DNA of 41,817 bases from NCBI GenBank assembly GCA_001917905.1, contig MNEX01000021.1, forward strand, positions 1-41,817, in the 5' to 3' direction. Source of the stretch: Acidobacteria bacterium 13_1_40CM_65_14 (GTDB lineage: Bacteria > Acidobacteriota > Vicinamibacteria > Vicinamibacterales > CAVVIG01). The notes beneath the pieces are model-generated. The model was not told where the DNA came from and searched no databases. It worked only from the letters and a program-made list of their open reading frames with translations. A program made the position numbers and the translations under genes. This document shows positions 10,330 to 39,916 of this stretch, piece after piece. Each line of letters begins with the position of its first letter. Position 1 is the first letter of the stretch.

Positions 10330-10470
10330 GTGACATCCTGTTCTGGATACGCGCGAGGGCCACGGCGCGAGCGCGTCAGACGTAGAGGGGGCGGTCAGTG
10401 ACGTCCTGTTCTGGATACGCGCGAGCGCCACGGCGCGAGCGCGTCAGGCGTGGGGGTGGGGCCCCACGCG
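10330..10470. repeat. Two tandem copies of the GTGACGTCCTGTTCTGG / GGGGCCCC element
   Basis: Copy one (10330-10397) and copy two (10398-10470) both begin GTGACRTCCTGTTCTGGATA and share a GCGCGAG...GCGCGAGCGCGTCAG block. The second ends in GCGTGGGGGTGGGGCCCCAC, whose core GTGGGGCCCCAC is a perfect palindrome. The copies fill the ymdB-xseA gap up to eight bases before the xseA ATG. The same unit occurs at 4047 and, inverted and translated, at 38472-38542. Confidence 0.9.
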
Positions 10471-11927: not shown

Positions 11928-12112
11928 CTTAAAGCGCGTTGCAGAATTACAACTCGCCACCACGGAGGACACGGGGGACACAGAGGCTGTGTACCTTTCT
12001 TTAGGGCTGAACCTCCTGTCCTCCGTGTCCTCTGTGGTGGAGAGGTTGCGGCGGTGATCGTCGAGTAGACCGCTTCGTTGTTTTCCTTTGTGTCCTTTGT
12101 GTCCTTCGTGTT
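11888..12112. repeat. Outer inverted micro-array, nonamer family F (TTTGTGTCC), split by a family A element
   Basis: The left arm begins AACACAAGGGCCACCAGGGA (11888 onward). The right arm near 12086-12112 reads CCTTTGTGTCC, TTTGTGTCC, TTCGTGTT, its inverted complement. The roughly 170 bp between them contain a complete family A element (11951-12047). Single right arms of family F also occur at 13351-13396 and 26680-26717. Confidence 0.85.
11951..12047. repeat. Inner inverted micro-array, family A, nested in family F
   Basis: AACTCGCCACCACGGAGG and ACACGGGGG units on the left are mirrored by CCTCCTGTCCTCCGTGTCC and TGTGGTGG on the right. It lies between the two arms of the family F element, which suggests insertion of one element into another. 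Confidence 0.88.
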
Positions 12113-12128
12113 AACTCAGAGCAGCGAC

Positions 12129-13350: not shown

Positions 13351-13396
13351 CAACACAATGGTTTTATCCTTTGTGTCCTTTGTGTCCTTTGTGTTC
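13351..13396. repeat. Family F nonamer array before tlyA
   Basis: After CAACACAATGG, three 9-bp TTTGTGTCC-type units follow in register (about 13370-13395). The left arm is reduced to the word AACACAA, so the hairpin is asymmetric. It occupies the ispA-tlyA gap, where dxs is often found in other bacteria. Confidence 0.85.
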
Positions 13397-13403
13397 GATC
13401 AGC

Positions 13404-14150
13404 GTGCGTAAAAACAAAACGCGCCTCGACGTCATCCTCGTCGATCGCGGCCTCGCTCCGTCTCGCGAACGCGCGCGGGCGCTCATCCTGGCCGGTCAGG
13501 TCAGCGTCGACGGCCAGGTCATCTCCAAAGCCGGCGCACCGGTCGCCGCCGACGCACGCGTCGAGCTCGCCACGCCCGATCATCCGTACGTCAGCCGCGG
13601 CGGCGTGAAGCTCGCCGGCGCGCTCGACACGTTCGGCGTGGACCCGGCCGGTCGCCGCGCGCTCGACGTCGGCGCGTCCACCGGCGGGTTCACCGACGTG
13701 CTCCTCCAGCGCGGCGCCGAGAGCGTCATCGCGCTCGACGTTGGGCACGGGCAGCTCGATTGGCGGCTGCGCAACGACGCGCGCGTCGTCGTCCGCGAAC
13801 GCGTCAACGCGCGCGCGCTGACGCGGGACGATGTGCCGCATGCTGTCAGCCTCGTGACGATCGACGTCGCCTTCATCTCGCTGCGGCACATCCTTCCGGC
13901 GCTGCCGCCGTTTCTCGATCGTCCCGCCGACATCGTCGCGCTCGTGAAGCCGCAGTTCGAAGCGGGACGCGAGGAAGTCGGCAAGCACGGACTGGTGACC
14001 GATCCCGCGATCCACGACGCGGTGATTGCGCGCGTGACCGAAGCGGCGCTGGCCTGCGGCTTCGCGCGCGCCGGCTTGACGCCGTCACCGATCACCGGCG
14101 CCACCGGCAACCAGGAATTCTTTCTTCACCTGACGCATGGCCGCGTTTGA
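13404..14150 (+). CDS. tlyA: TlyA family rRNA methyltransferase / hemolysin A-like protein
   Basis: The 248-residue protein has an N-terminal S4 RNA-binding domain (KTRLDVILVDRGLAPSRERA ... GQVSVDGQVISKAG, about 4-58). An FtsJ-like methyltransferase follows, with YVSRGGVKLAGALDTF, the SAM motif ALDVGASTGGFTDVLLQ (about 82-98), IALDVGHGQLDWRLR and ALVKPQFEAGREEVGKHG. Characterised TlyA proteins 2'-O-methylate 16S and 23S rRNA. The GTG at 13404 directly follows the repeat and gives the standard N-terminus. The gene overlaps panE by 14 bp. Confidence 0.93.
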   Translation: MRKNKTRLDVILVDRGLAPSRERARALILAGQVSVDGQVISKAGAPVAADARVELATPDHPYVSRGGVKLAGALDTFGVDPAGRRALDVGASTGGFTDVLLQRGAESVIALDVGHGQLDWRLRNDARVVVRERVNARALTRDDVPHAVSLVTIDVAFISLRHILPALPPFLDRPADIVALVKPQFEAGREEVGKHGLVTDPAIHDAVIARVTEAALACGFARAGLTPSPITGATGNQEFFLHLTHGRV

Positions 14151-19588: not shown

Positions 19589-21646
19589 GTGAAACGAATT
19601 CTTGTCGGCTTGCTTGTCGTTGGTGTGGCCGCCGCCGTGGCGTGCCGGTCGAGCCCGCCCGAAAAATTCCGTCAGAAGCTCGTCATTCTCGGTTTCGACG
19701 GCATGGACCCCCGGCTCGTCCAGCGATGGATGGATGAGGGCCGGCTGCCGAATTTCAAGAAGCTCGCCGCGCGTGGCGGCGGTGTGCATCCGCTCGAAAC
19801 CACGCATTCACCGGAATCGCCGACGGCGTGGGCGTCGTTCGCGACCGGTGTGAATGCCGGCAAGCACAACATCTACGATTTCCTCGTGCGCGACACCAAC
19901 ACCTACCTGCCGGATCTCGGCATGGTGACGCGCGAGCCGCCGCGCTTCATCTTCAATTACATCCCGATCTCCAGGCCGAAGATCACGTCGATCCGCGGAG
20001 GCACGTCGTTCTGGGTGACGGCGGGACGAAGCGGCGTGCGATCGAGCGTGTTGACGGTACCGGTGACCTATCCACCCGAAGAGGTGCCGAACGGCGAATT
20101 GCTGTCCGGGCTGCCGCTGCCCGATATTCGCGCGACGATGGGGACCTTTTATTACTTCGGGACCGACCTGAGCCGGTACGAAGAAGGCAACACGGAGTTC
20201 GGCGGGATTCTGAAGCGGCTCGTGTTCGAAGGCGACGTCGCACAGACGGAGCTCGTGGGCCCGCCCAATCCGATCGTCAGGAAGCAACTGCGCGAGGCGC
20301 GCGCCAAATCCCCGCTCGGCGAGCTCGACAAGATGAAGATCGCCGAGCTCGAAGCGCGCGAAGACATCCGGCTGCCGATCACCATTCACTGGAACCGCGC
20401 CGGCAAGTCGGCGACGATCGACATCGCCGACACCTCCCTCCGGCTCGCCGAACACGAATGGAGCAAGTGGATCAATCTGGACTTCAGCATCAACCTGCTC
20501 GTGCGCGTGCACGGCATGGCGCAGTTGTACTTGATCGGCGCGGGTCAGGAGCTGCAGCTCTACGTCTCGCCCGTCAACTGGAAGCCGGATAAGCCGCCGG
20601 CGCCGATGTCGTCGCCCCCGTCCTTCTCGGCCGACTTGTACGAACGGCTCGGCCCGTATCGGACGCTCGGATGGGCCGAAGCGACGTGGCCGCTCAACGA
20701 AGATCGCATCGACGAGAAGACGTTCATGGACGATCTCTATCGCGCCTTCGACGATCGCGCGCAGGTCATCCTGCAGCGGATCGATACGCGCCAGTGGGAT
20801 CTGCTCGTCGGCGTCATCGAGTCGACCGATCGCGTGCAGCACATGATGTGGCGGCTCATCGATCCCACGCACCCGATGTACGACAAGGCGCTCGCGGCGA
20901 AGTTCGGCGACGCCATCGAGCGCGTCTACCGCAAGTGCGACGACTTCGTCGGGGAAGTGATCGCGCGCGTCGATCCGAGCACGCCGATTCTCATCGTCTC
21001 GGATCACGGCTTTCACTCGTTCCGCCAGTCCGTGAACTTGAACACGTGGCTCGTGCAGGAAGGCTTCATGGCGATCCAGGGTCAGCAGCCTGGAGAAAAG
21101 ACGCTGCAGGATCTATTCGGCGGCGGCGGCACGTTCTGGGAGAACGTCGACTGGACGCGCACCAAGGCGTACGCCATGGGTCTCGGCCAGGTTTACATCA
21201 ACCTCAAAGGCCGCGAAGGCCGAGGCATCGTCTCATCCGGCGCCGAGTCGAAGCAGGTTCAGGACGACCTCGCCGCGCGGCTGCTGACGATGACGGACCC
21301 GACGACCGGCGCGCGGATCGTCGACGCGGTCTACAAGGCCGACGACGTGTACTCGGGGGAGTTCGTGAAAAACGCCGCGGAGTTGCAGGTGGGCATGGCC
21401 GACGGCTACCGCGTCTCCTGGCAGTCGACGCTCGGCGGCTCGCCGCCCGGCCTCGTGTACGCGAACAAGAAAAAGTGGTCCGGCGATCACGGGTCGTTCG
21501 ACTACAAGTCGACGCCCGGCACGCTGATTTCGAGCGTGCCCGTCGCGGCCGGCAGCGCGACGAGCATCATCGACATCGCACCCACGGTGTTGAAGTATTT
21601 CGGTCTGCCGATACCCAGTGATATCGATGGCAAACCGCTGTTCTAA
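19589..21646 (+). CDS. Lipoprotein of the alkaline phosphatase superfamily (type I phosphodiesterase/nucleotide pyrophosphatase-like)
   Basis: The 685-residue protein begins with a lipoprotein signal ending VAAAVAC, so Cys19 is the likely lipidation site. Metal-site motifs of the superfamily follow: LVILGFDGMDPRLVQRWMDE, HSPESPTAWASFATGVNAGK (nucleophile region), VGVIESTDRVQHMMW, ILIVSDHGFHSF and WSGDHGSFDYKS. The C-terminus IIDIAPTVLKYFGLPIPSDI is typical of such enzymes and sulfatases. It probably hydrolyses phosphoester-bearing substrates outside the cytoplasmic membrane; the substrate is unknown. Longer in-frame extensions upstream run into ruvX and the promoter and are rejected. Its stop overlaps the start of the EnvC-like gene. 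Confidence 0.85.
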   Translation: MKRILVGLLVVGVAAAVACRSSPPEKFRQKLVILGFDGMDPRLVQRWMDEGRLPNFKKLAARGGGVHPLETTHSPESPTAWASFATGVNAGKHNIYDFLVRDTNTYLPDLGMVTREPPRFIFNYIPISRPKITSIRGGTSFWVTAGRSGVRSSVLTVPVTYPPEEVPNGELLSGLPLPDIRATMGTFYYFGTDLSRYEEGNTEFGGILKRLVFEGDVAQTELVGPPNPIVRKQLREARAKSPLGELDKMKIAELEAREDIRLPITIHWNRAGKSATIDIADTSLRLAEHEWSKWINLDFSINLLVRVHGMAQLYLIGAGQELQLYVSPVNWKPDKPPAPMSSPPSFSADLYERLGPYRTLGWAEATWPLNEDRIDEKTFMDDLYRAFDDRAQVILQRIDTRQWDLLVGVIESTDRVQHMMWRLIDPTHPMYDKALAAKFGDAIERVYRKCDDFVGEVIARVDPSTPILIVSDHGFHSFRQSVNLNTWLVQEGFMAIQGQQPGEKTLQDLFGGGGTFWENVDWTRTKAYAMGLGQVYINLKGREGRGIVSSGAESKQVQDDLAARLLTMTDPTTGARIVDAVYKADDVYSGEFVKNAAELQVGMADGYRVSWQSTLGGSPPGLVYANKKKWSGDHGSFDYKSTPGTLISSVPVAAGSATSIIDIAPTVLKYFGLPIPSDIDGKPLF

Positions 21647-22805
21647 ACGTACAACGCAGAACTCGCGGAACACGCAGAGAGTCTTGTGGTCTGCGGTTTC
21701 TGCGGTTTCTGCGTTGATCGTCGTCGTAGGTGCTGTGCTGGTGGGCCAGCAGGCGGACCGCGCGCGGACCGAGGCGCTCGCGCGGCGCGCGGGCGAGCGG
21801 CTGCAGGTGCTTCAGCGCGAAGCGGAGCGTCTCGCGTCGCAGGAGTCGACGCTGCTGAACGATCTCCGCAAGCTCGAGGTCGAACGCCAGTTGAAGGGCG
21901 AAGAGCTGAAGCAACTCGATGCTGAAGCGGCCCGCGTGGGCGCCGAGTTGACCGCCACGACTGAGCGGATGGAGGCGCTTCAGAAATCCGAAGCAGCCGA
22001 GCGCCCGGAGCTGCGCGCGCGCGTGGTCGAAATCTACAAGCTCGGTCGAGCGCGCTACCTGCGCCTGCTGCTCTCCACGCCCGATCTCCGGCGCATCGGT
22101 CAGGCCTCACGCACGGTCGCCGCGATGGCCAAGCTCGATCGCGATCGCATCGCCTCGCATCAGCGCACGCTCGCCGAGCTGGAATCGGCGCGCGCGACAC
22201 TTCAGGAGCGCCAGAAGGCGCTGACCACGGTCCGCGCCGCGGCGGAGAAAGCGCAGGCCGCCGCGCAGCGCGCCGCGCAGGCGCGCAGCGATCTCATTCG
22301 CGACATCGATCGCCGCCGTGACCTCAACGCGCAACTTGCCGGCGAATTGCAGACGGCGCAGCAGAAGCTGCAGCTCGCGTTGCGCGAGATCGCGAGCGGC
22401 ACGCCGCCGGCCGACGTCGCAGCGCTCCCGCTCAAGCCGTTCCGAGGAGACCTCGACTGGCCGGTTCGCGGCGACGTGAGGCGCCGGTTCAGCGGAGGGA
22501 CATCGAAAGGGATTGAGATCGCCGCCACGGAAGGCACCGACGCGGTCGCCGTTCACGATGGGCTTGTGGCGTTCGCGGGCACGTTTTCCGGATTCGGCAA
22601 TCTCGTGATCCTGGATCACGGATCGCAAACGTTCAGCTTGTACGGCGACCTGCTGGACATCACCGTGAAGAAGGGCTCGCATATCGATCGTGGCCAGCCG
22701 GTCGGGTCGGTGGGACCCACGCCCTCCGGCGCCGCCGGCCTGTATTTCGAGCTCCGCATCGACGGTCAGCCGGTCGACCCGCTACAATGGTTGAAGAAAC
22801 GGTGA
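21627..22805 (+). CDS. envC: EnvC-like murein hydrolase activator (degenerate LytM/M23 domain)
   Basis: About 392 residues: a short N-terminal hydrophobic anchor, a long coiled coil (about 40-245), and a C-terminal M23 fold (about 270-392) with GIEIAATEGTDAVAVHDGLV, GNLVILDHGSQTFSLYGDL and LYFELRIDGQPVDPLQWL. The zinc-binding HxGxD and HxH positions are replaced (SKGIE, LYF), as in E. coli EnvC, which activates amidases rather than cutting murein. The start is uncertain: ATG 21627, GTG 21618 and TTG 21684 are all in frame. Residues about 9-30, including SAVSAVSALIV of the anchor, come from the repeat at 21652-21716. The neighbouring S41 gene follows directly. Confidence 0.82.
   Translation: MANRCSKRTTQNSRNTQRVLWSAVSAVSALIVVVGAVLVGQQADRARTEALARRAGERLQVLQREAERLASQESTLLNDLRKLEVERQLKGEELKQLDAEAARVGAELTATTERMEALQKSEAAERPELRARVVEIYKLGRARYLRLLLSTPDLRRIGQASRTVAAMAKLDRDRIASHQRTLAELESARATLQERQKALTTVRAAAEKAQAAAQRAAQARSDLIRDIDRRRDLNAQLAGELQTAQQKLQLALREIASGTPPADVAALPLKPFRGDLDWPVRGDVRRRFSGGTSKGIEIAATEGTDAVAVHDGLVAFAGTFSGFGNLVILDHGSQTFSLYGDLLDITVKKGSHIDRGQPVGSVGPTPSGAAGLYFELRIDGQPVDPLQWLKKR
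21652..21716. repeat. 65-bp inverted nonamer element (TCTGCGGTT family) read as the EnvC N-terminus
   Basis: The left arm is CAACGCAGAACTCGCGGAA and CACGCAGAG. The right arm is TCTGCGGTT, TCTGCGGTT, TCTGCGTTG in 9-bp register. A near-identical 64-bp element lies at 31371-31434. Here the right arm is translated Ser-Ala-Val-Ser-Ala-Val-Ser-Ala, part of the hydrophobic anchor. Confidence 0.9.
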
Positions 22806-22818
22806 GGTGCCTGTCCTT

Positions 22819-23985
22819 ATGAGCTCACGAACCCGCGTCATCGTCATGACCATTTCCGCCCCGGTGATCGCGTTTGCGATCGTGGGCGGGTTCCTCGGCA
22901 AGGCGATGGCCCGCGAGGACACCTATCAGCACCTCAAGATCTTCGACGATGTGGTGAGCTTGATCATGAGCAACTACGTCGAGGACGCGAACGTGGACAA
23001 GGTGATGCGCGGGGCGATGCACGGGCTGGCCGACGGTCTGGATCCCGACAGCGCGTACCTGACGGCCGACGAAGTGAAGCAGGTCGAGAACAACACGCCG
23101 CTCGCGCCCGGCGATGTCGGCATCGATCTCACGCGTCAGTACTATCTGCGCGTCATCGCGACGCGCGACGATTCTCCGGCCGCGAAGGCCGGCATCCGCA
23201 CCGGCGATTACATCCGCGCGATAAATGACACGCCGACGCGCGAGATGTCCGTGTGGGAAGGCGTGCGCGCGCTGCGCGGCGCGCCCGGCTCGAAAGTCAG
23301 CGTCACCGTCATCCGCGGCAACGCGGCCGACCCGCACAACATCGATCTGGTGCGCGCACCGATCCCGACCAACGACGTGACCGGCCGCATCGCCGCGCCG
23401 GGTGTCGGCTACGTGCGTGTCGCCGCGATCGGCAGTGGCACCGCCGGCCGGCTGCGCTCACAGATTCAGGAGCTCACGAAAAACGGCGCCGCCAAACTGA
23501 TCGTCGACGTGCGGCGGACGTCGGGCGGCCTGGCGGAGCATGGAATCGACCTCGCGCGCCTGTTCGTGGCGAACGGCACGCTCGCCATGCGAGAGACGCG
23601 CGGCGGCGCGAAAGAGACGATCGCCGCCGCTTCCGACGACGGATCGATCACGCTGCCGGCCGTGCTGCTCGTCGACGCCGGCACGTCGGGCGCGGCCGAG
23701 CTCTTCGCCTCGGCGCTCGCCGGCAACAAGCGAGCTGAGCTCATCGGCGAACACACCATCGGACGCGCGGCCATTCAGAAGCTCGTGAAGCTGCCCGACG
23801 GCGCCGGGCTCTGGTTGTCCACCGCGCGCTACCTCACGCCTTCAGGCACGCCGCTGCATGAGAAGGGTCTCGAGCCGACCGTCGCGGTCGATGAGCCGGA
23901 CGTCGAGTTCGGTCAGACTCCGCCGCCTGGCGATCCGGTTTTTGACAAAGCCCTCGAGCGGCTCACCGACAAGAAAGCCGCGTAA
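22819..23985 (+). CDS. S41 (carboxy-terminal processing) peptidase homologue with altered catalytic positions
   Basis: The 388-residue protein has an N-terminal membrane anchor (about 7-27), the helical region DDVVSLIMSNYVEDANVDKV, DGLDPDSAYLT, a PDZ domain (about 90-180: ATRDDSPAAKAGIRTGDYIR) and the S41 core. Aligned by eye with CtpA/CtpB, GSASASE reads GTSGAAE, placing Gly at the catalytic Ser. GEKTFGKG reads GEHTIGRA, placing Arg at the catalytic Lys; the downstream Gln is kept. It may therefore be a scaffold rather than a protease, unless the neighbouring Ser acts. It starts shortly after the EnvC-like gene, suggesting joint control of cell separation. An in-frame GTG at 22807 is less likely than ATG 22819. 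Confidence 0.85.
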   Translation: MSSRTRVIVMTISAPVIAFAIVGGFLGKAMAREDTYQHLKIFDDVVSLIMSNYVEDANVDKVMRGAMHGLADGLDPDSAYLTADEVKQVENNTPLAPGDVGIDLTRQYYLRVIATRDDSPAAKAGIRTGDYIRAINDTPTREMSVWEGVRALRGAPGSKVSVTVIRGNAADPHNIDLVRAPIPTNDVTGRIAAPGVGYVRVAAIGSGTAGRLRSQIQELTKNGAAKLIVDVRRTSGGLAEHGIDLARLFVANGTLAMRETRGGAKETIAAASDDGSITLPAVLLVDAGTSGAAELFASALAGNKRAELIGEHTIGRAAIQKLVKLPDGAGLWLSTARYLTPSGTPLHEKGLEPTVAVDEPDVEFGQTPPPGDPVFDKALERLTDKKAA

Positions 23986-24030: not shown

Positions 24031-24106
24031 AGGCGCGTAGCTCAGAGGTTAGAGCGCCTGCTTGACACGCAGGAGGTCGGTGGTTCGAGTCCACCCGTGC
24101 CTACCA
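24031..24106 (+). tRNA. tRNA-Val (anticodon GAC), CCA encoded
   Basis: The 76-nt cloverleaf has a 7-bp acceptor stem (AGGCGCG / CGTGCCT with one G-U pair), a D arm GCTC...GAGC, an anticodon stem CCTGC/GCAGG with loop TTGACAC (anticodon GAC), a T arm with GGTTCGAGTCC and the discriminator A followed by genomic CCA. GAC reads valine codons GUC and GUU. It precedes thrS by 19 bp and may be co-transcribed with it. Confidence 0.95.
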
Positions 24107-26679: not shown

Positions 26680-26717
26680 CAACACAATTCTTTGTGTCCT
26701 TCGTGTCCTTTGTGTTG
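26680..26717. repeat. Family F nonamer array before rpmI
   Basis: AACACAA is followed by three 9-bp units (TTTGTGTCC, TTCGTGTCC, TTTGTGTT). It fills most of the infC-rpmI spacer, where the operon often carries leader structures for L20 autoregulation. Confidence 0.85.
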
Positions 26718-26741
26718 ATTCAGCGGAGCAAAGCAGGCCAG

Positions 26742-27330: not shown

Positions 27331-27420
27331 AAGTCTGAAGTACGAAGTCTGAAGTACGAAGTCTGAAGTCTGAAGCTTCGTACTTCAAACTTCGTACTTC
27401 AAACTTCAAACTTCATACTT
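27331..27420. repeat. Heptamer inverted array (AAGTCTG/AAGTACG and CTTCGTA/CTTCAAA)
   Basis: Left arm: AAGTCTG, AAGTACG, AAGTCTG, AAGTACG, AAGTCTG, AAGTCTG in perfect 7-bp register. Right arm: CTTCGTA, CTTCAAA, CTTCGTA, CTTCAAA, CTTCAAA, CTTCATA. The arms meet almost without a spacer, so a hairpin of about 40 bp per arm with mismatches is possible. It spans the entire rplT-pheS gap up to two bases before the pheS ATG. Confidence 0.95.
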
Positions 27421-31309: not shown

Positions 31310-31462
31310 CTCGAGAACGCGAACCACCGCCAAGACCGCAAGGAAAGCCCTTCTTTGCGGTCACGACGTTCAACGCAGAACGCGCGGAAACCGCAGAGAG
31401 ATTCTGCTCTGCGTGTTCTGCGATTTCTGCGTTGATCGTTCTTTACGTTTTTGCGTTCGACC
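31310..31462. repeat. Compound repeat: GCGAACC/GCGGTC words around a 64-bp TCTGCGTTG element
   Basis: GAACGCGAACCACCGCCAAG and GACCGCAAGG are paired with CCTTCTTTGCGGTC (about 31350). Next comes a complete CAACGCAGA...TCTGCGTTG element (31371-31434), then TTTACGTTTTTGCGTTCG, which complements the leftmost word. This suggests nested elements. Confidence 0.75.
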
Positions 31463-31506: not shown

Positions 31507-31743
31507 ATGTTCAAAGACCTTCGCTACGCCGTGCGGACGCTCGTTCGCACGCCCGCGTTCACGCTGACGGCCGTCTTCACCCTCGCGCTCGGCCTCGGCG
31601 CCAACACGGCCATGTTCAGCGTCGTCAATGCCGTCCTTCTGCGGCCGCTCCCCGTTGCCGACCCTGACCGCCTGGTGCTGGTCTTCAGTGACCACCCTGC
31701 GAATGGAATGACCAATCTTGACCGCGCTCGGCCCGGAGACTAA
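31507..31743 (+). pseudogene. N-terminal fragment of an ADOP/MacB-like ABC permease
   Basis: [20 protein letters not shown], then [20 protein letters not shown] and [14 protein letters not shown], is the hallmark N-terminus of acidobacterial permeases of the MacB/FtsX type, normally about 800 residues. Similarity stops after about 65 residues. The frame then runs by chance into the 6S RNA promoter (giving LDRARPGD) and stops at 31743. No remainder is seen downstream, so this is a remnant left by recombination. It supports the acidobacterial assignment. Confidence 0.75.
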
Positions 31744-31752: not shown

Positions 31753-31945
31753 GGAACTTGAGTTCCCTGCTTTGCGCGTGATGGCGGCAGGCTCGTTTGA
31801 GCCAACGTATCACCAAAGTGAGTCGCGACGCCGCGTGGTGTGCATGCCTCTGTAGCGAGGAAGCCTGAAGCGCGGCTTTTTGAGCGGTTCCACCTGTTAA
31901 TCGCAGGTTCATCGACCTCCCCACACGGCAAAGCGGGGCCTTTAC
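31753..31945 (+). ncRNA. ssrS: 6S RNA
   Basis: Conserved 6S words occur in order: TTGAGCC (31797-31803), a GTG...GCG region, GCCGCGTGGTGTGCATGCC (matching CCGCGG-TTGGTGAGCATGC of E. coli) and GAAGCCTGAA. A closing stem of 11 pairs joins CCCTGCTTTGC (31765-31775) to GCAAAGCGGGG (31928-31938), giving the expected length of about 185 nt. 6S RNA mimics an open promoter and sequesters sigma-70 RNA polymerase in stationary phase. Location after zapA is typical. The exact ends are approximate. Confidence 0.88.
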
Positions 31946-33719: not shown

Positions 33720-34855
33720 CCATTTCTGACTGCAGCGAGCGCGAGCTCATCGCGCGCATCCAGGCTCGTCTGCCCCCGCCTCCGGACTGGCTGCTCGTTG
33801 GCATCGGCGACGATGCCGCGGTCGTCGAGCCGGAGAGACATCGGGCCGAAGTGCTGACCGTTGACGCCCTCGTCGAGGGCGTCCATTTCGATCGCGCGTT
33901 CGTGCCGCCCGACGCCATCGGCCACCGCGCGCTCGCCGTCAATCTGAGCGATCTGGCCGCGATGGGCGCGGCGCCTCGCCTCGCGCTCCTGTCGCTCGCG
34001 CTGCCGCCCGGCCTGCTCATCGCCGACTTCGACGGTCTCGTCGCGGGCATCGCGGCGCTCGCCGAACGTACTCGCGTTCACGTCGTCGGCGGGAACCTCA
34101 CGCGATCGACGGGCCCGCTGATGATCGACATCAGCCTCACCGGCACCGTCAAACCACGACAGGTTCTCAAGCGCAGCGGCGCGCGTCCGGGCGATACGTT
34201 GTACGTGAGTGGTACGATCGGAGCCGCTGCGGTTGGGCTGATGATGCTGAGGAATTCCACCACACACCCCAAACGCTCCACCACTGGGGACACGAAGGAC
34301 ACGGAGGAACAATCGCGTTCCGGAAACGTTTTAACCTCTGTGTCCCCCGTGGTGGAGCGTTGCATCCAGCGATATCTTCGGCCCGAGCCCCGTGTGCGAC
34401 TCGGCCTCATGCTCGCGCGGAATCGCGCGGCCAGTGCGTGCATGGACCTGAGCGACGGACTCAGCGACGCCGTGTATCAGATCGCGGCGGCGAGCGGCGT
34501 CGGCGCGCGCATCGACGCCGGCGCGCTGCCGATCGAGCCATGCGCGCGCGAGGTGTTTGCGGCGCGCGGCGCCGATCCGGTCACCGAGGCGATCACCGGC
34601 GGTGACGATTACGAGCTGCTGGTCGCGGTCCGGCCGCGCACGCGAGGCCGGCTGGCCGCGGCAATCCGGCACGGCGGGGTGCCGCTGACCCGCATCGGCG
34701 TCTGCACCGAGGATCGCGCAGTCGTGTTGAGCCGCGATGGCGGCGACACGCCGCTGCCCGGCGGAGGGTACAGCCACTTCCGCTCGGCTGAAGCCTCGTC
34801 CCTCGACCACGCTCGGGACGACCCTGCGCGTGTCGAAGGGTCGCGCGCCACATGA
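33716..34855 (+). CDS. thiL: Thiamine-monophosphate kinase with an in-frame hairpin-repeat insertion
   Basis: The 379-residue protein carries ThiL motifs: [14 protein letters not shown] (metal/nucleotide aspartates), [55 protein letters not shown] and [14 protein letters not shown]. It phosphorylates TMP to thiamine diphosphate. Between [10 protein letters not shown] and [15 protein letters not shown], where ThiL has a short variable linker, about 30 residues ([13 protein letters not shown]...SVSPVVER, about 186-216) are encoded by a family A inverted repeat. The last 18 or so residues ([19 protein letters not shown]) resemble a translated REP element. GTG start overlaps the rny stop. Confidence 0.93.
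34272..34361. repeat. Family A inverted array inside thiL
   Basis: AACGCTCCACCACTGGGGA, then ACGAAGGAC and ACACGGAGG units, are mirrored by CCTCTGTGTCCCCCGTGGTG and GAGCGTT. The 90-bp element is a multiple of three, contains no stop in the thiL frame, and gives the same STTGDT ... SVSPVVE peptide as the copy in the ABC gene at 36752. Confidence 0.92.
34797..34850. repeat. Degenerate REP-like element at the thiL 3' end
   Basis: CCCTCGACCACGCTCGGGA and GTGTCGAAGGGTC recall the CTTCGAC/GTCGAAGG words at 15055-15150. It is translated as the ThiL C-terminus. Confidence 0.6.
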
Positions 34856-35406: not shown

Positions 35407-35889
35407 ATGATCATTTCAGGGTCCTTCTGGCGGAAGAGCGTTGTGACGACGGTTGCGGTGGGCTGCTTCGTGTCGATGTACGAAGTGACGGCGCCGGCGC
35501 CCGGCGCGCGCCTCGCGTTCAGCGCGACCGCCTACTGCAAGGGCCTCGAGACAGCGTCCGGCGTCGCGGTCCAGAGCGGCATCGTCGCGTCGGACCCCGA
35601 GTTGCTGCCCGTCGGCTCGGTCATCGAAATCGATTCACTCCCGGGGCGTTATAACGGCATCTACACGGTGCTCGACACAGGCCCCGCCGTCCAGGGACGC
35701 CAGGTCGACGTGTACATGTGGAGCTGCAACGAGGCGTTGCAGTTCGGGCGCCGCCCGATTCATCTCAACGTGCTGCGCCTCGGGTGGAATCCGCGCGCGA
35801 CGACCCCGACATTCTTCGATCGATTGTTCACACGTCCGGAACCGCCGCCGCTCCCGTCGCGTCCGCTGCCGCTACGCATTGAGGATTGA
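35407..35889 (+). CDS. 3D-domain protein with double-psi beta-barrel fold
   Basis: The 160-residue protein has an N-terminal hydrophobic segment (about 10-26, signal or anchor). A 3D domain follows: FSATAYCKGLETASGVAVQS, GIVASDPELLPVGSVIEID, YNGIYTVLDTGPAVQGRQVD and VYMWSCNEALQFGRRPI. The three aspartates for which the domain is named are in ASDPELLP, VLDTG and VDVYM. The fold occurs in MltA-type lytic transglycosylases and in Sps/YabE-like wall proteins, so a role in the cell envelope is likely. The final IED and TGA stop lie in the heptamer array that follows. Confidence 0.82.
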   Translation: MIISGSFWRKSVVTTVAVGCFVSMYEVTAPAPGARLAFSATAYCKGLETASGVAVQSGIVASDPELLPVGSVIEIDSLPGRYNGIYTVLDTGPAVQGRQVDVYMWSCNEALQFGRRPIHLNVLRLGWNPRATTPTFFDRLFTRPEPPPLPSRPLPLRIED

Positions 35890-36042
35890 GGATTGCGGAT
35901 TGCGGATTTATTGTTGATTGTTGATTTGGGGAGTTATCGATCCACAATCAGCACTGAAACCGGCAAATCGGTAGGAATCCGCAATCGTCAAGTAATCCGC
36001 TATCATCAATAAATCCGCAATCCGCAATCCTCAATCCGCAAT
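35878..36042. repeat. Heptamer inverted array (GGATTGC family D) shared by two convergent gene ends
   Basis: Left arm: GGATTGA, GGATTGC, GGATTGC, GGATTTA, TTGTTGA, TTGTTGA. Right arm near 36008-36042: AATCCGC, AATCCGC, AATCCTC, AATCCGC. The interior has related ATCCGC words and an ACAATCAGC. Both converging genes take their stop codon from it (IED-stop and IAD-stop). Confidence 0.9.
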
Positions 36043-37917
36043 ACTCTCAGTTTGTCGCTCAGTCTTGTATTGCAGCTCGAACAGCTTGAAGTAGATCCCC
36101 CGCTTGGCGAGCAGCTCCTGGTGTGTGCCGGCTTCGCGAAGCCGCCCTTTGTGCAGCACGAGGATCTTGTCCATGTCCTGAATCGTCGACAGGCGATGCG
36201 CGATGGCGATCGTCGTACGGCCGGCCATCAGCACGCGCAGCGCGTCGCGGATGACGATTTCCGTCTCGGTGTCGACGCTCGAGGTCGCTTCGTCGAGAAT
36301 CAGGACGCGCGGATCGAAGGCGAGCGCGCGTGCGAAGGACAGCAGCTGCTTCTGGCCGACCGACAACGTCGATCCACGTTCCGCCACGGCGCTCCCATAA
36401 CCGTCGGGCAGTCGTGAAATGAACGGCTCGGCGTGGACGGCCTGCGCCGCGCGCTTGAGACGCTCGTCGTCGATCGTCTGGCTGCCCAGGCGGATGTTGT
36501 CGGCGATCGTGCCCGAGAACAGATGTACGTCCTGCAGCACGAGGCTGAACAAGCCGCGCAGGTCCGCCAGATCCAGCGTGCGAATGTCGACGCCGTCGAC
36601 GGTGATGCGCCCGCGCTGCACGTCGTAAAAGCGCAGAAGCAAGTTGATCAGCGTCGTCTTGCCCGATCCGGTCGCGCCGACGATGCCGACGCGCTCGCCG
36701 GGGCGCACCTCGAAGCTGATGTCGCGGAGTACCCAGTTCTCATCATCTGAGCTCTCCACCACAGGGGACACGGAGGACACGGAGGAACAACTACTTTTCC
36801 TCCTGTCCTCCGTGTCCCCCGTGGTGGAGAGTTTCCCGTCGTACGCGAACCACACGTTCTCGAAACGGATATGCCCCGCCGCCGGCGCAGGGCGACGAAC
36901 GGGTTGGACCGGCGCCTCGATCGTGACCGGCTCGTCGAGCACCTTGAAGATGCGCTCAGACGACGCCATCGCCGCCTGCAGGATGTTGAACTTCTCCGAC
37001 AGATCGCTGATCGGCCGGAAGAACCGCTGCGAGTACTGGAGGAACGCGACGAGCGATCCGATCGTCAGCGTTCCCGCCATCACGCTGAGGCCGCCGTACC
37101 AGATGATCAGCGCGGCCGCGAGCGCGCTGATCGCTTCGATCGCCGGATAGAAGACCGCGTAGTAGAAAATCGAGTCGACGTTCGCGTCGCGATGCTTGCG
37201 ATCGATTTCGTCGAAGCGCTCGAAATTCAGCGCCTCCCGCCGGAACAGCTGCACCGTCATCATGCCGGTGATGTTTTCCTGCAGGAACGCGTTGATGCGG
37301 GCGATCCAGCCGCGGACGACCCGGTAGGTGTCGCGGACGTTGCGCCGGAACCACTGCGCGACCAGCACGATGAGCGGAAGCACGCAGAACGCGACGAGCG
37401 CGAGCCGCCAGTTCATCCAGATCATGATCACCATGATGCCGACGAGCGGCAGCACGTCGCTGAAGACGGTCACGACGCCCGACGTGAAGAGATCGTTCAG
37501 AACGTCGACGTCGGAGGTGACGCGCGTCATGAGACGGCCGACCGGATTGCGGTCGTAATACTTCAGATCCAGCCGCTGCAGGTGACCGTAGATGGCCATC
37601 CGCAGGTCGTACATGATCCGCTGCCCGGTGAGCTGCATCGTCCAGGTCTGGATGTATTCGGCCGCGAACGAGATGACGAGGAGCGCGAGATAGACCGCCG
37701 CCAGACGGTCGAGGCCCGCGAGGCGTCCGGTGGCGATGTAGCGGTCGATGGCAATCTTCATCAGGTACGGCTGCGCCAGCGACACGGCCGCGCCGATGAT
37801 GATGACGACGAACGCGACGAGCACCGACCGCCAGTACGGCCGCAGGTATTGCAACAGCCGCCGCATCAGCCGCGCGTCGTAGGCTTTGCCGAGGATTTCG
37901 TCGTCGTGAACGGTCAT
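36031..37917 (-). CDS. ABC transporter half-subunit (permease-ATPase) with repeat insertion in the ATPase domain
   Basis: The 628-residue exporter half has six membrane segments (about 25-310), then an ATPase domain with A-loop VWFAYDG, Walker A GATGSGKTT (about 413), LVLQDVHLFSGTIADNI, signature LSVGQKQ and Walker B VLILDEATSSVD, H-loop AIAHRLST. Between the A-loop and Walker A, about 27 residues (LSTTGDTEDRRK ... SVSPVVES, about 362-389) come from an in-frame family A repeat. An adjacent half-transporter gene upstream on the same strand suggests a heterodimeric exporter for lipids, drugs or peptides. The ATG at 37917 is chosen because further upstream lies repeat DNA. Confidence 0.92.
   Translation of the reverse strand: MTVHDDEILGKAYDARLMRRLLQYLRPYWRSVLVAFVVIIIGAAVSLAQPYLMKIAIDRYIATGRLAGLDRLAAVYLALLVISFAAEYIQTWTMQLTGQRIMYDLRMAIYGHLQRLDLKYYDRNPVGRLMTRVTSDVDVLNDLFTSGVVTVFSDVLPLVGIMVIMIWMNWRLALVAFCVLPLIVLVAQWFRRNVRDTYRVVRGWIARINAFLQENITGMMTVQLFRREALNFERFDEIDRKHRDANVDSIFYYAVFYPAIEAISALAAALIIWYGGLSVMAGTLTIGSLVAFLQYSQRFFRPISDLSEKFNILQAAMASSERIFKVLDEPVTIEAPVQPVRRPAPAAGHIRFENVWFAYDGKLSTTGDTEDRRKSSCSSVSSVSPVVESSDDENWVLRDISFEVRPGERVGIVGATGSGKTTLINLLLRFYDVQRGRITVDGVDIRTLDLADLRGLFSLVLQDVHLFSGTIADNIRLGSQTIDDERLKRAAQAVHAEPFISRLPDGYGSAVAERGSTLSVGQKQLLSFARALAFDPRVLILDEATSSVDTETEIVIRDALRVLMAGRTTIAIAHRLSTIQDMDKILVLHKGRLREAGTHQELLAKRGIYFKLFELQYKTERQTESIAD
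36752..36831. repeat. Family A inverted array inside the first ABC gene
   Basis: CTCTCCACCACAGGGGACA and ACACGGAGG units are mirrored by CCTCCTGTCCTCCGTGTCC and GTGGTGGAGAG. It is read without a stop in the ABC frame and gives the same peptide phase as the thiL copy. Confidence 0.93.
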
Positions 37918-37925
37918 AAAAGCCG

Positions 37926-38016
37926 CGCCACCACGGTGGACGCGGGGGACACGGAGGCGCAATCGGGCTCACATCCAGGATTGAACCTCCTGTCCCCCGT
38001 GTCCACCGTGGTGGAG
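37926..38016. repeat. Family A inverted array between the two ABC genes
   Basis: GCCACCACGGTGGACGCGGG and ACACGGAGG are mirrored by CCTCCTGTCCCCCGTGTCC and ACCGTGGTGGAGAG. It fills the spacer, ending nine bases before the downstream gene's ATG on the minus strand. Confidence 0.92.
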
Positions 38017-38029
38017 AGAGTCGCCATTC

Positions 38030-39916
38030 TCATGATGCCGCCAACTCCTCCTCCAGCAATTGCTTCTTGTGCAGCTCCGCGTAGAGCCCGTTGTGGCGAA
38101 TGAGCTCGTCGTGCGTGCCGCGTTCGAAGATGCGGCCCTGATCGAGCACGAAAATCTGATCGGCGTCGCGGACCGTCGAGATGCGGTGCGACACGATGAT
38201 CGAGGTCCGCTCGCGCATCACGTCGCGCAGCCGCGACAGGATTTCTTCCTCGGTATACGTGTCCACGGCCGACAGCGCGTCGTCGAGAATCAGGATCCGC
38301 GGATCGATGGCGATCGCGCGCGCCAGCGCGGTCCGCTGCTTTTGGCCACCGGAAAGGGTGATACCGCGCTCCCCCACCATCGTCTCGTAGCCTTTCGGAA
38401 AATCCTCGACGTCCTTATCGAGACGAGCCACCGACGCCGCATGGACAATGCGGTCGTGCCTTTCTTGATTTCCGCGGGGCCCCACCCCCGCGGCTGACGC
38501 GCTCGGGCAGTAGCCCTCGCGCGTATCAAGAACAGGACGTCCAGGATCTCCGTCGGCCCGTCCTGGCTGTCCCGCCTGTCCCGCCCGTCCCGCCTCTCCT
38601 GCCCCGGCGATCGCATCCAGCCCGAACGCGACGTTATCCGCGAGCGTGTCCGAGAACAGAAACGGCTCCTGCGGCACGAATCCGATTGCGCCGCGGAGAA
38701 CCGCGAGCGGCATCTCGCGCACGTCCACGCCGTCGATGAACACCGTGCCGGGCGGCGGATCGTGCAGCCGCGCGAGCAGCGAAATGAGCGTCGATTTTCC
38801 CGAACCGGTGACGCCGACGAGCGCGACGGTCTGGCCCGCTTCGATCTTGGCGGACACGTGATTCAACACCGGCGTTCCGTTGAAACCGAACACGAGATCG
38901 CGAAATTCGATCGCTCCGCGAATCGACCATGAATCCGCAATCCGCAATCCGCGATCCGCAATGGCTGGCTCTGTATCGAGGATCTCCAACATCCGCTTCC
39001 AGGACGCCATGCCGCGCTGCAGCATGTTCGTCACCCACCCGAACGCGATCATCGGCCACGCGAGCATCGTCAGATACGCGTTGAACGCGACGAACTGACC
39101 GAGCGTGATGCGGCCGCGGATCACCTCGCGGCTGCCGAGCCACAGCACCAGCAGCGCACCGAGGCCGAGGAAAAACGACATGCTCGGGAAGAAAAACCCC
39201 TGGAGCACAATCAACCGGCGGTTGCGCCGCAGATACTCCTCGTTGGACTTCCGGAAGCGCTCCAGCTCGGCCGCTTCCTGCCGGTAGGCGCGCACGACGC
39301 GGGCGCCGGACAGCGCTTCCTGCGTCACCGCACTCACCTCCGACAGCTGCGCCTGAATCTGCTCGAAGCGTTTGTGAATCTCGCTGCCGAAATACCACAC
39401 CGAGATCGACACAAACGGCAGCGGGATCAGCGAGAGCAGCGTGAGCCACGGATCGATGGCCAGCATCATCGCCAGCGCGACGACGAAGGTCAGCATCGTG
39501 TTGGCCGAGTACATGACGGAGGGACCGATCATCATCCGCACGGCGTTCAAGTCGTTGGTGGCACGCGACATGAGGTCGCCGGTCCGGTGACTCTGAAAGT
39601 ACGCGAGCGGCAGCTTCTCCAGGTGCGCGAAGAAGTCGTTCCGCATGTCGTACTCGATGTCGCGGGACGCCCCGATGAGAATGCGGCGCATCAGGTATCG
39701 AAACAGGCCGCCGACGATCCCGATGCCCAGAAGGAGGGTGGCGTACTCGATCAGCTTCGCGCGCGTGACACCGCGGGTGAGGTCGTCGATGGCGTACCGG
39801 AGTACCATGGGCGACGCCAATGCCACGCCCTGTGTGATGACCACACACACCAACCCAACGAGGAAAGCCTGCCGATACCGGAGCACGTAGCCCAGCAGAC
39901 GTCGAAACGGTGACAC
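38030..39916 (-). CDS. ABC transporter half-subunit with three repeat-derived inserts
   Basis: The 628-residue exporter half has six membrane segments (about 15-300) and an ATPase domain with Walker A GVTGSGKST, GFVPQEPFLFSDTLADNVAF (Q-loop), signature LSGGQKQRTAL, Walker B ILILDDALSAVD and the H-loop IIVSHRIST. In Walker B, Asp replaces the usual catalytic Glu, as in one site of asymmetric heterodimers. Three inserts are encoded by different repeats: RGLRIADS (about 318-328), GEAGRAGQAGQPGRA (about 436-453) and a GC-rich element (about 458-481). The last two lie in the helical subdomain between Q-loop and signature. The start is GTG, seven bases after a minus-strand TATACT. Confidence 0.92.
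   Translation of the reverse strand: MSPFRRLLGYVLRYRQAFLVGLVCVVITQGVALASPMVLRYAIDDLTRGVTRAKLIEYATLLLGIGIVGGLFRYLMRRILIGASRDIEYDMRNDFFAHLEKLPLAYFQSHRTGDLMSRATNDLNAVRMMIGPSVMYSANTMLTFVVALAMMLAIDPWLTLLSLIPLPFVSISVWYFGSEIHKRFEQIQAQLSEVSAVTQEALSGARVVRAYRQEAAELERFRKSNEEYLRRNRRLIVLQGFFFPSMSFFLGLGALLVLWLGSREVIRGRITLGQFVAFNAYLTMLAWPMIAFGWVTNMLQRGMASWKRMLEILDTEPAIADRGLRIADSWSIRGAIEFRDLVFGFNGTPVLNHVSAKIEAGQTVALVGVTGSGKSTLISLLARLHDPPPGTVFIDGVDVREMPLAVLRGAIGFVPQEPFLFSDTLADNVAFGLDAIAGAGEAGRAGQAGQPGRADGDPGRPVLDTREGYCPSASAAGVGPRGNQERHDRIVHAASVARLDKDVEDFPKGYETMVGERGITLSGGQKQRTALARAIAIDPRILILDDALSAVDTYTEEEILSRLRDVMRERTSIIVSHRISTVRDADQIFVLDQGRIFERGTHDELIRHNGLYAELHKKQLLEEELAAS
38472..38542. repeat. GC-rich GGGGTGGGGCCCC element inside the second ABC gene
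   Basis: The reverse complement reads GGACGTCCTGTTCTTGATAC at its start and ends GCGGGGGTGGGGCCCCGC, matching the 10398-10470 copy almost word for word. It is translated in frame as part of a roughly 50-residue insert. Confidence 0.9.
38556..38607. repeat. Nonamer array CCTGTCCCG inside the second ABC gene
   Basis: Units CCTGTCCCG, CCTGTCCCG, CCCGTCCCG, CCTCTCCTG in 9-bp register code for Gly-Gln-Ala/Gly-Arg-Ala type triplets on the minus strand. It sits directly beside the GC-rich element. Confidence 0.88.
38932..38962. repeat. Heptamer array AATCCGC inside the second ABC gene
   Basis: Four 7-bp units (AATCCGC three times, GATCCGC) followed by AATGG. The same word builds the array at 35878-36042. 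It is translated as Ile-Ala-Asp-Arg-Gly-Leu-Arg-Ile-Ala-Asp, in the linker between the membrane and ATPase domains. Confidence 0.9.

Follow-up and report, generated by a model that had tools for sequence, protein, structure and literature searches.

Can a dispersed palindromic repeat supply the export signal of a conserved protein? The question is raised by a 79-bp element lying in-frame at the N-terminus of a gene for an EnvC-like murein hydrolase activator in contig MNEX01000021.1 of Acidobacteria bacterium 13_1_40CM_65_14 (41,817 nucleotides, hereafter the window). The gene (21627 to 22805, plus strand; 392 aa) overlaps by 20 nt, through its ATG, an upstream phosphodiesterase gene (PF01663; nominal start 19304, end 21646, plus strand), whose last codons GAT GGC AAA CCG CTG TTC TAA include, when shifted to the +1 frame, the start of EnvC. 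Comparing this locus with its relatives (acidobacterial "gp6" and Vicinamibacterales genomes; G and L numbers below denote genomes and loci, G000 being the present genome), we put a probability of roughly 0.88 on the element being translated between a conserved upstream start and the mature EnvC-like protein, thereby forming the export signal, in a segment that turns over among repeat families.

The element belongs to a family of palindromic repeats dispersed through the genome. BLAST, alignment of copies and folding place it at 21646 to 21724 (no strand), with a left arm (21647 to 21678, plus strand), a loop that differs among copies (21679 to 21689, plus strand) and a right arm (21690 to 21721, plus strand); each arm consists of three 9-bp units, those on the right being of the TCTGCGGTT type and followed by TTGATCGTC. 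Searching its own genome with the element returned at least 78 strand-hits, or at least about 40 sites (copy numbers from BLAST searches are lower bounds), and the core pattern occurred 227 times with up to two mismatches, compared to 9 occurrences of a reversed-pattern control, which speaks against a chance likeness. An alignment of 29 copies from this genome gave the consensus ACGACGTTCAACGCAGAACnCGCGGAACCCGCAGA, loop, TCTGCGTGTTCTGCGGTTTCTGCGTTGATCGT, the loop varying in both length and sequence. This multi-copy dispersed palindrome is found both intergenically and in-frame within genes. The preliminary description had reported a 65-bp element at 21652 to 21716, nearly identical to an intergenic one at 31371 to 31434. 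Both are present, although the first extends to about 21646 to 21724, and 55 identical columns of 65 (85%) make "nearly identical" slightly strong. The second window copy spans 31363 to 31441 (no strand), upstream of a MacB-like gene fragment.

Translated in-frame, the two arms read as RTTQNSRNTQR, a polar and basic n-region, and SAVSAVSALIVV, a hydrophobic core. The right arm gives S-A-V-S-A-V-S-A-L-I-V-V, of which SAVSAVSALIV makes up most of the core, in agreement with the Ser-Ala-Val repeats described earlier within the N-terminal hydrophobic segment. A basic n-region thus precedes a hydrophobic core, as in Sec signals, with a small residue (Gly) at -1. The predicted signal peptide, MANRCSKRTTQNSRNTQRVLWSAVSAVSALIVVVGAVLVG, covers 21627 to 21746 (plus strand), and we infer that the mature protein starts at QQADR (21747), cleavage there being followed by export. 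The segment had been called a membrane anchor; its hydrophobicity stands, but it looks more like a secretory signal peptide than a fixed anchor. Translation with retention as an uncleaved N-terminal anchor is unlikely, and would be possible in this species alone: membrane-tethered M23 proteins exist, and LVG, not AXA, precedes QQADR here. In orthologues, however, a clear AXA-type site stands directly before QQxDR (SAQ, AFAQQ, LFAQQ, VAAQQ and similar sites at the same point), and signal peptidase I tolerates Gly at -1.

The palindrome itself offers a reason why it should read as a signal. In either orientation of the element, an A/purine-rich arm is followed by a T-rich arm; two of the three frames of the consensus left arm encode RRSTQNSRNPQ or VQRRTRGTRR, and one frame of the right arm encodes SACSAVSALIV. 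When the 29 copies were read in both orientations and three frames, 12% of the frames were signal-like (a basic first half and a hydrophobic end, with thresholds set by the analyst), compared to 0.6% after shuffling and 0 of 87 after swapping the arms. Across 20 repeat-built N-termini from three genes (the G011 lipoprotein, read by eye, was left out), the frame used was the most hydrophobic one in 19 and the n-region was positive in all 20, part of this pattern being expected of any signal peptide. Because the palindrome fixes the polar-then-hydrophobic order, a copy in the right frame would be a ready-made export signal. Alternatively, the element could persist for the sake of its hairpin, in RNA or DNA, which might stabilize the transcript or serve coupling or attenuation across the two genes, the signal peptide being a by-product. 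Its fold is very stable (27-bp stem, 11-nt loop, -40.8 kcal/mol, z = -5.3 against 200 dinucleotide shuffles), and 94% of stem cells are paired across the 29 copies. However, covariation did not exceed that in shuffles, on which ground RNA-level selection on the element was rejected, and no Rfam family was found at the element. Moreover, relatives have one-armed repeats (G003, G001) or none (L084, L092) at the same place, and the reading frame is kept throughout, which makes the hairpin explanation highly improbable.

Translation of the element depends on where the gene starts. Four in-frame start codons, rather than the three previously counted, lie before or within the repeat: GTG 21618 and ATG 21627 before it, TTG 21684 in the loop, and TTG 21714 at the end of the right arm. 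We compared 36 distinct related loci with the phosphodiesterase directly upstream of EnvC, in which its last Asp-Gly is written either as GAT-GGN, so that the +1 frame gains an ATG, or with a different Asp codon, nearly always GAC. Wherever the overlapping ATG was present (19/19 loci), its frame ran open into EnvC, whereas only 1/17 loci lacking it had such an open frame (Fisher P = 2e-9, for genomes that are related); the lone exception, L113, has a TTG at the adjacent codon. The kept frame is informative because the interval between ATG and mature protein is so divergent, differing in nearly everything among loci, with signal lengths between about 19 and 53 residues. In L092 (MGSRSFSLALSLVLALAAQ) and L084 (MARRCFSLALGAWLAVTTGAVAAQ), a complete, short, repeat-free signal begins exactly at the overlapping ATG, and in G010 the upstream GTG is excluded as a start because TAG directly precedes the ATG. 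GAT is the minority Asp codon (31%) in these phosphodiesterase genes, which lends only indirect support to selection on the overlapping ATG, the 19 loci having themselves been grouped by GAT. Judged by sequence comparison, translation in the EnvC-like family starts upstream of the repeat, and ATG 21627 is the probable start in vivo.

The preliminary description had pointed out that a start downstream of the repeat would leave it non-coding. Initiation at TTG 21714 or GTG 21735/21741 would indeed turn the repeat into an untranslated leader with a coincidentally open frame. Most of the 29 copies examined are intergenic, several of them ending just before the start codons of cytosolic genes (a thiamine pyrophosphate enzyme, malate/lactate dehydrogenase, ribosomal protein L9), and many N-terminal repetitive extragenic palindromic (REP) sequences may be extragenic through misplaced starts (PMC3733652). 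The association of the overlapping ATG with the open frame places the start upstream instead; a protein begun downstream would also lack a basic n-region and retain only some 10 hydrophobic residues, and in G018, G026 and G060 almost no hydrophobic residues remain after the repeat. There is thus a very small chance that translation begins after the element. As far as such a comparison can tell, the published caution about misplaced starts is answered for envC, and recurrence, several families and a structural reason are added to it.

In relatives, other repeats were observed at the same place. The signal interval reads FAAFAAFAF in G001, of the same genus as G000; WWLVAGGWWL in G026, with a similar stretch in G003; CILAFVHSCILAF in G018, of the same genus as G026; RTVTVTVIAGLLAITVTVTV in G060; GGWGLGAGAWGLRRK in G016; and RTTKKQPRSTRRPRR-MLVSAICAVLAV in G021. 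Matches of the segments from nine genomes, each within its own genome, numbered at least 23 (G021), 42 (G010), 74 (G018), 40 (G026), 81 (G060), 47 (G001), 17 (G006), 13 (G016) and 15 (G003), counts to which both strands of a palindrome contributed and, for pooled queries, related segments as well. The envC signal interval is thus filled by at least five families of sequence, all in-frame, and twice the repeats differ within one genus (G018 and G026; G000 and G001). Together with the conserved upstream start, these results uphold the suggestion that a repeat replaced or remade the signal region. Growth of the hydrophobic repeats in place from a 9-bp unit, rather than from a dispersed element, has next to no likelihood. 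In its favor, the right arm consists of tandem 9-bp units, and G001, G003 and G026 have only right-arm-like tandems; against it, the full 79-bp element, with arms and boundaries, matches at least about 40 other genome sites, and other copies do carry the left arm and boundaries.

Several further observations were made at envC in relatives. The G011 segment, which has the look of a GTAG-type REP, was rejected as a multi-copy case, with only one other weak match in G011. In G015, G049 and G011 (L051, L061, L041), REP-like hairpins (TCCGGCTTCAGCCGGA, AAGGTCCGC) lie inside the signal region of envC or adjoin it. The envC N-terminus of L089 is made up of GGGTGAGGCGAGTGGGGCGGGTAAC ... ACCCGCCCTACC repeats (RRVRRVGRVTRVI ... 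YPPNPPYLPYPP), and no phosphodiesterase tail was found upstream of it. EnvC of the acidobacterial type was also present in records titled Bifidobacterium breve (CALQBJ020000079.1, L091) and Clostridiales (JARYMI010000014.1, L120), titles that are probably wrong.

We propose that a copy of the element landed between ATG 21627 and the mature-protein sequence of envC and became translated, its A/purine-rich left arm yielding the n-region and its T-rich right arm the hydrophobic core. Start codon and mature protein would be under selection while the interval between them needs only basic-then-hydrophobic residues, which would account for its turnover: it has been rebuilt from unrelated repeat families in related genera and in congeneric species, the repeats probably arriving by transposition or gene conversion. 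Some observations weigh against this account. The core residues VVGAVLVG fall outside the element, and the candidate cleavage site (between L-V-G and QQADR, or between V-G-A and VLVG) is weaker than in relatives. No clear Shine-Dalgarno sequence was found at ATG 21627, so translational coupling must be assumed. The P values are too favorable, since related genomes are not independent, and the named relatives are nearly all metagenome-assembled, the present genome being a fragmented draft.

Counting the one in EnvC, 5 of the 29 copies are joined in-frame to the N-terminus of a protein that is exported or lies in the membrane. The clearest further candidates are a lipoprotein encoded after hslU, to which the element would give the signal VRRGRSRRSTQKPQNPQSRFCSAFSASSALTVVCVFTLAC, followed after the cleavage point by GKSGPP, and a mannosyltransferase-like membrane protein encoded after larE, for which it would form the first helix, VNTYDVERRTRRARRNIFSADSAVSALIVVLAIGFLAF (hslU and larE were identified by reading the sequence, and the mannosyltransferase match was just under the Pfam cut-off). 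Each of these two starts shares 4 nt with the stop codon before it, and is retained in orthologues whether or not they carry a repeat. Orthologues of the lipoprotein retain a GTGA start, their signal being repeat-like in G016, G003, G011 and G010, less clearly so in G006, and short and repeat-free in G001, G013, G017, G028 and G031. There are two weaker cases: L018 (HupE/UreJ), where translation of the element uses another frame (LRV), and L019, where the start may lie beyond the element (MFLTLAPLPAAAA). Fused copies were found in 5/8 exported or membrane genes compared to 0/6 cytosolic ones (P = 0.03, genes sorted by hand), which is only suggestive of an association between fusion of the element and exported proteins.

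The EnvC-like product combines a coiled coil with an M23/LytM domain lacking the HxH motif. Its best PDB matches were EnvC of Escherichia coli, Pseudomonas and others (6tpi, 4bh5, 8hd0), and as in EnvC, LYFE stands in place of the metal-binding HxH, with KGIEI/LYFEL aligning with KGMVI/LYFEI. It thus shares with EnvC of E. coli and Pseudomonas a coiled coil and a degenerate LytM domain with substituted catalytic residues, ending in LYFE(I/L)R. Unlike these, it scored below the NCBIfam EnvC equivalog cut-off (NF008644, 86.5 bits against 270) and is no formal equivalog; we therefore call it EnvC-like. An S41/PDZ C-terminal processing protease gene (22807 to 23985, plus strand) follows in the same apparent operon.

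Outside subscription journals, the only earlier reports found to bear on repeated signal-peptide recruitment were those of Delihas and those on REPs. Rickettsia palindromic elements (RPE; Ogata 2000, reviewed in PMC2229807) are short palindromes found intergenically and in-frame in protein genes, at varied positions in many proteins, where they are seen as tolerated inserts. The present element resembles them in being a short palindrome in both settings and differs in its insertion at a signal peptide, with arms matching n-region and h-region, and in the many families at one gene. The YPAL/RU-2 miniature inverted-repeat transposable element (MITE) in YPO1552 of Yersinia is a single predicted signal case in a small putative exported protein (Delihas 2007, PMC2759123). 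There too, homologues elsewhere have unrelated signal sequences (PMC2759123), and the present element likewise has terminal inverted repeats, as MITEs do; here, however, the gene is a conserved EnvC-like one, with many genera, at least five repeat families and a comparative start-codon test. For a target-site duplication, relatives offered no clean empty site, having other repeats at the position.

REPs (GTAG- or CGTC-tagged, 20 to 40 bp with a terminal tag) are high-copy palindromes beside and sometimes inside genes, often N-terminally, and related tyrosine transposases occur in Acidobacteria (PMC3733652). The likeness lies in the high copy number and in the position adjoining or within genes, often at the N-terminus. 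The present element, however, has a 79-bp consensus with three 9-bp units per arm and no GTAG tag, CGTC ending only some copies. The sole Y1_Tnp match in the genome (G000:C103:122-460, at a contig edge) had no element copy in its 1960-bp locus. Membership among REPs and their associated tyrosine transposases was rejected on tag, size and transposase, and plasmid origin was rejected for want of a match. A different palindrome (GTCACGAGTCGGAGTAGAGTCCGACTC) lies downstream of this Y1_Tnp gene, the only one found (L209, 1085 to 1149).

The window contains other repeats. A palindromic family with paired arms around short unique loops (CCACCACGGAGGACACGGAGG ... CCTCCGTGTCCCCCGTGGTGGAGAG) occurs at 291-390, 11953-12046, 34274-34361, 36752-36833 and 37924-38020, and in L110 a similar element apparently serves, once translated, as a signal peptide (MTTRSTRGTKKNTRNLILFLCALGVLSAP). 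At 12072-12119, 13364-13411 and 26685-26723 lies a third family with 9-bp units (TTTGTGTCC), with GATTGAGGATTGCGG arrays found at 35878-36042 and AAGTCTGAAGTACG arrays at 27331-27420. The repeat GTGACRTCCTGTTCTGGATACGCGCGAG has neighboring copies at 10330-10391 and 10398-10459 and an inverted copy 28 kb off, at 38473-38541. A tRNA is found at 24031-24103, and a 6S RNA (RF00013, 78.7 bits) at 31761-31943, just downstream of the 78-codon MacB-like gene fragment (31507-31743).

Earlier work had described palindromes read in-frame and one predicted signal derived from a MITE; the novelty here lies in a replacement that recurs, with many repeat families, at a single gene, and in the logic of arm polarity. 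Automatic trimming of open frames that run through intergenic repeats is inadvisable in start-codon calling. Although signal peptides diverge fast, the origin of new ones is rarely visible, and here the raw material can be identified. One gene has been refitted several times with different repeats, and why this works has a simple, testable answer: the palindrome reads basic-then-hydrophobic. Since the arms run from A-rich to T-rich, a copy arriving after an overlapping start codon could turn into a signal peptide or a first membrane helix, and we lean narrowly towards the view that palindromic repeats provide Vicinamibacteria with a permanent stock of ready-made export signals, through which the N-termini of exported proteins would be renewed generally and continually.
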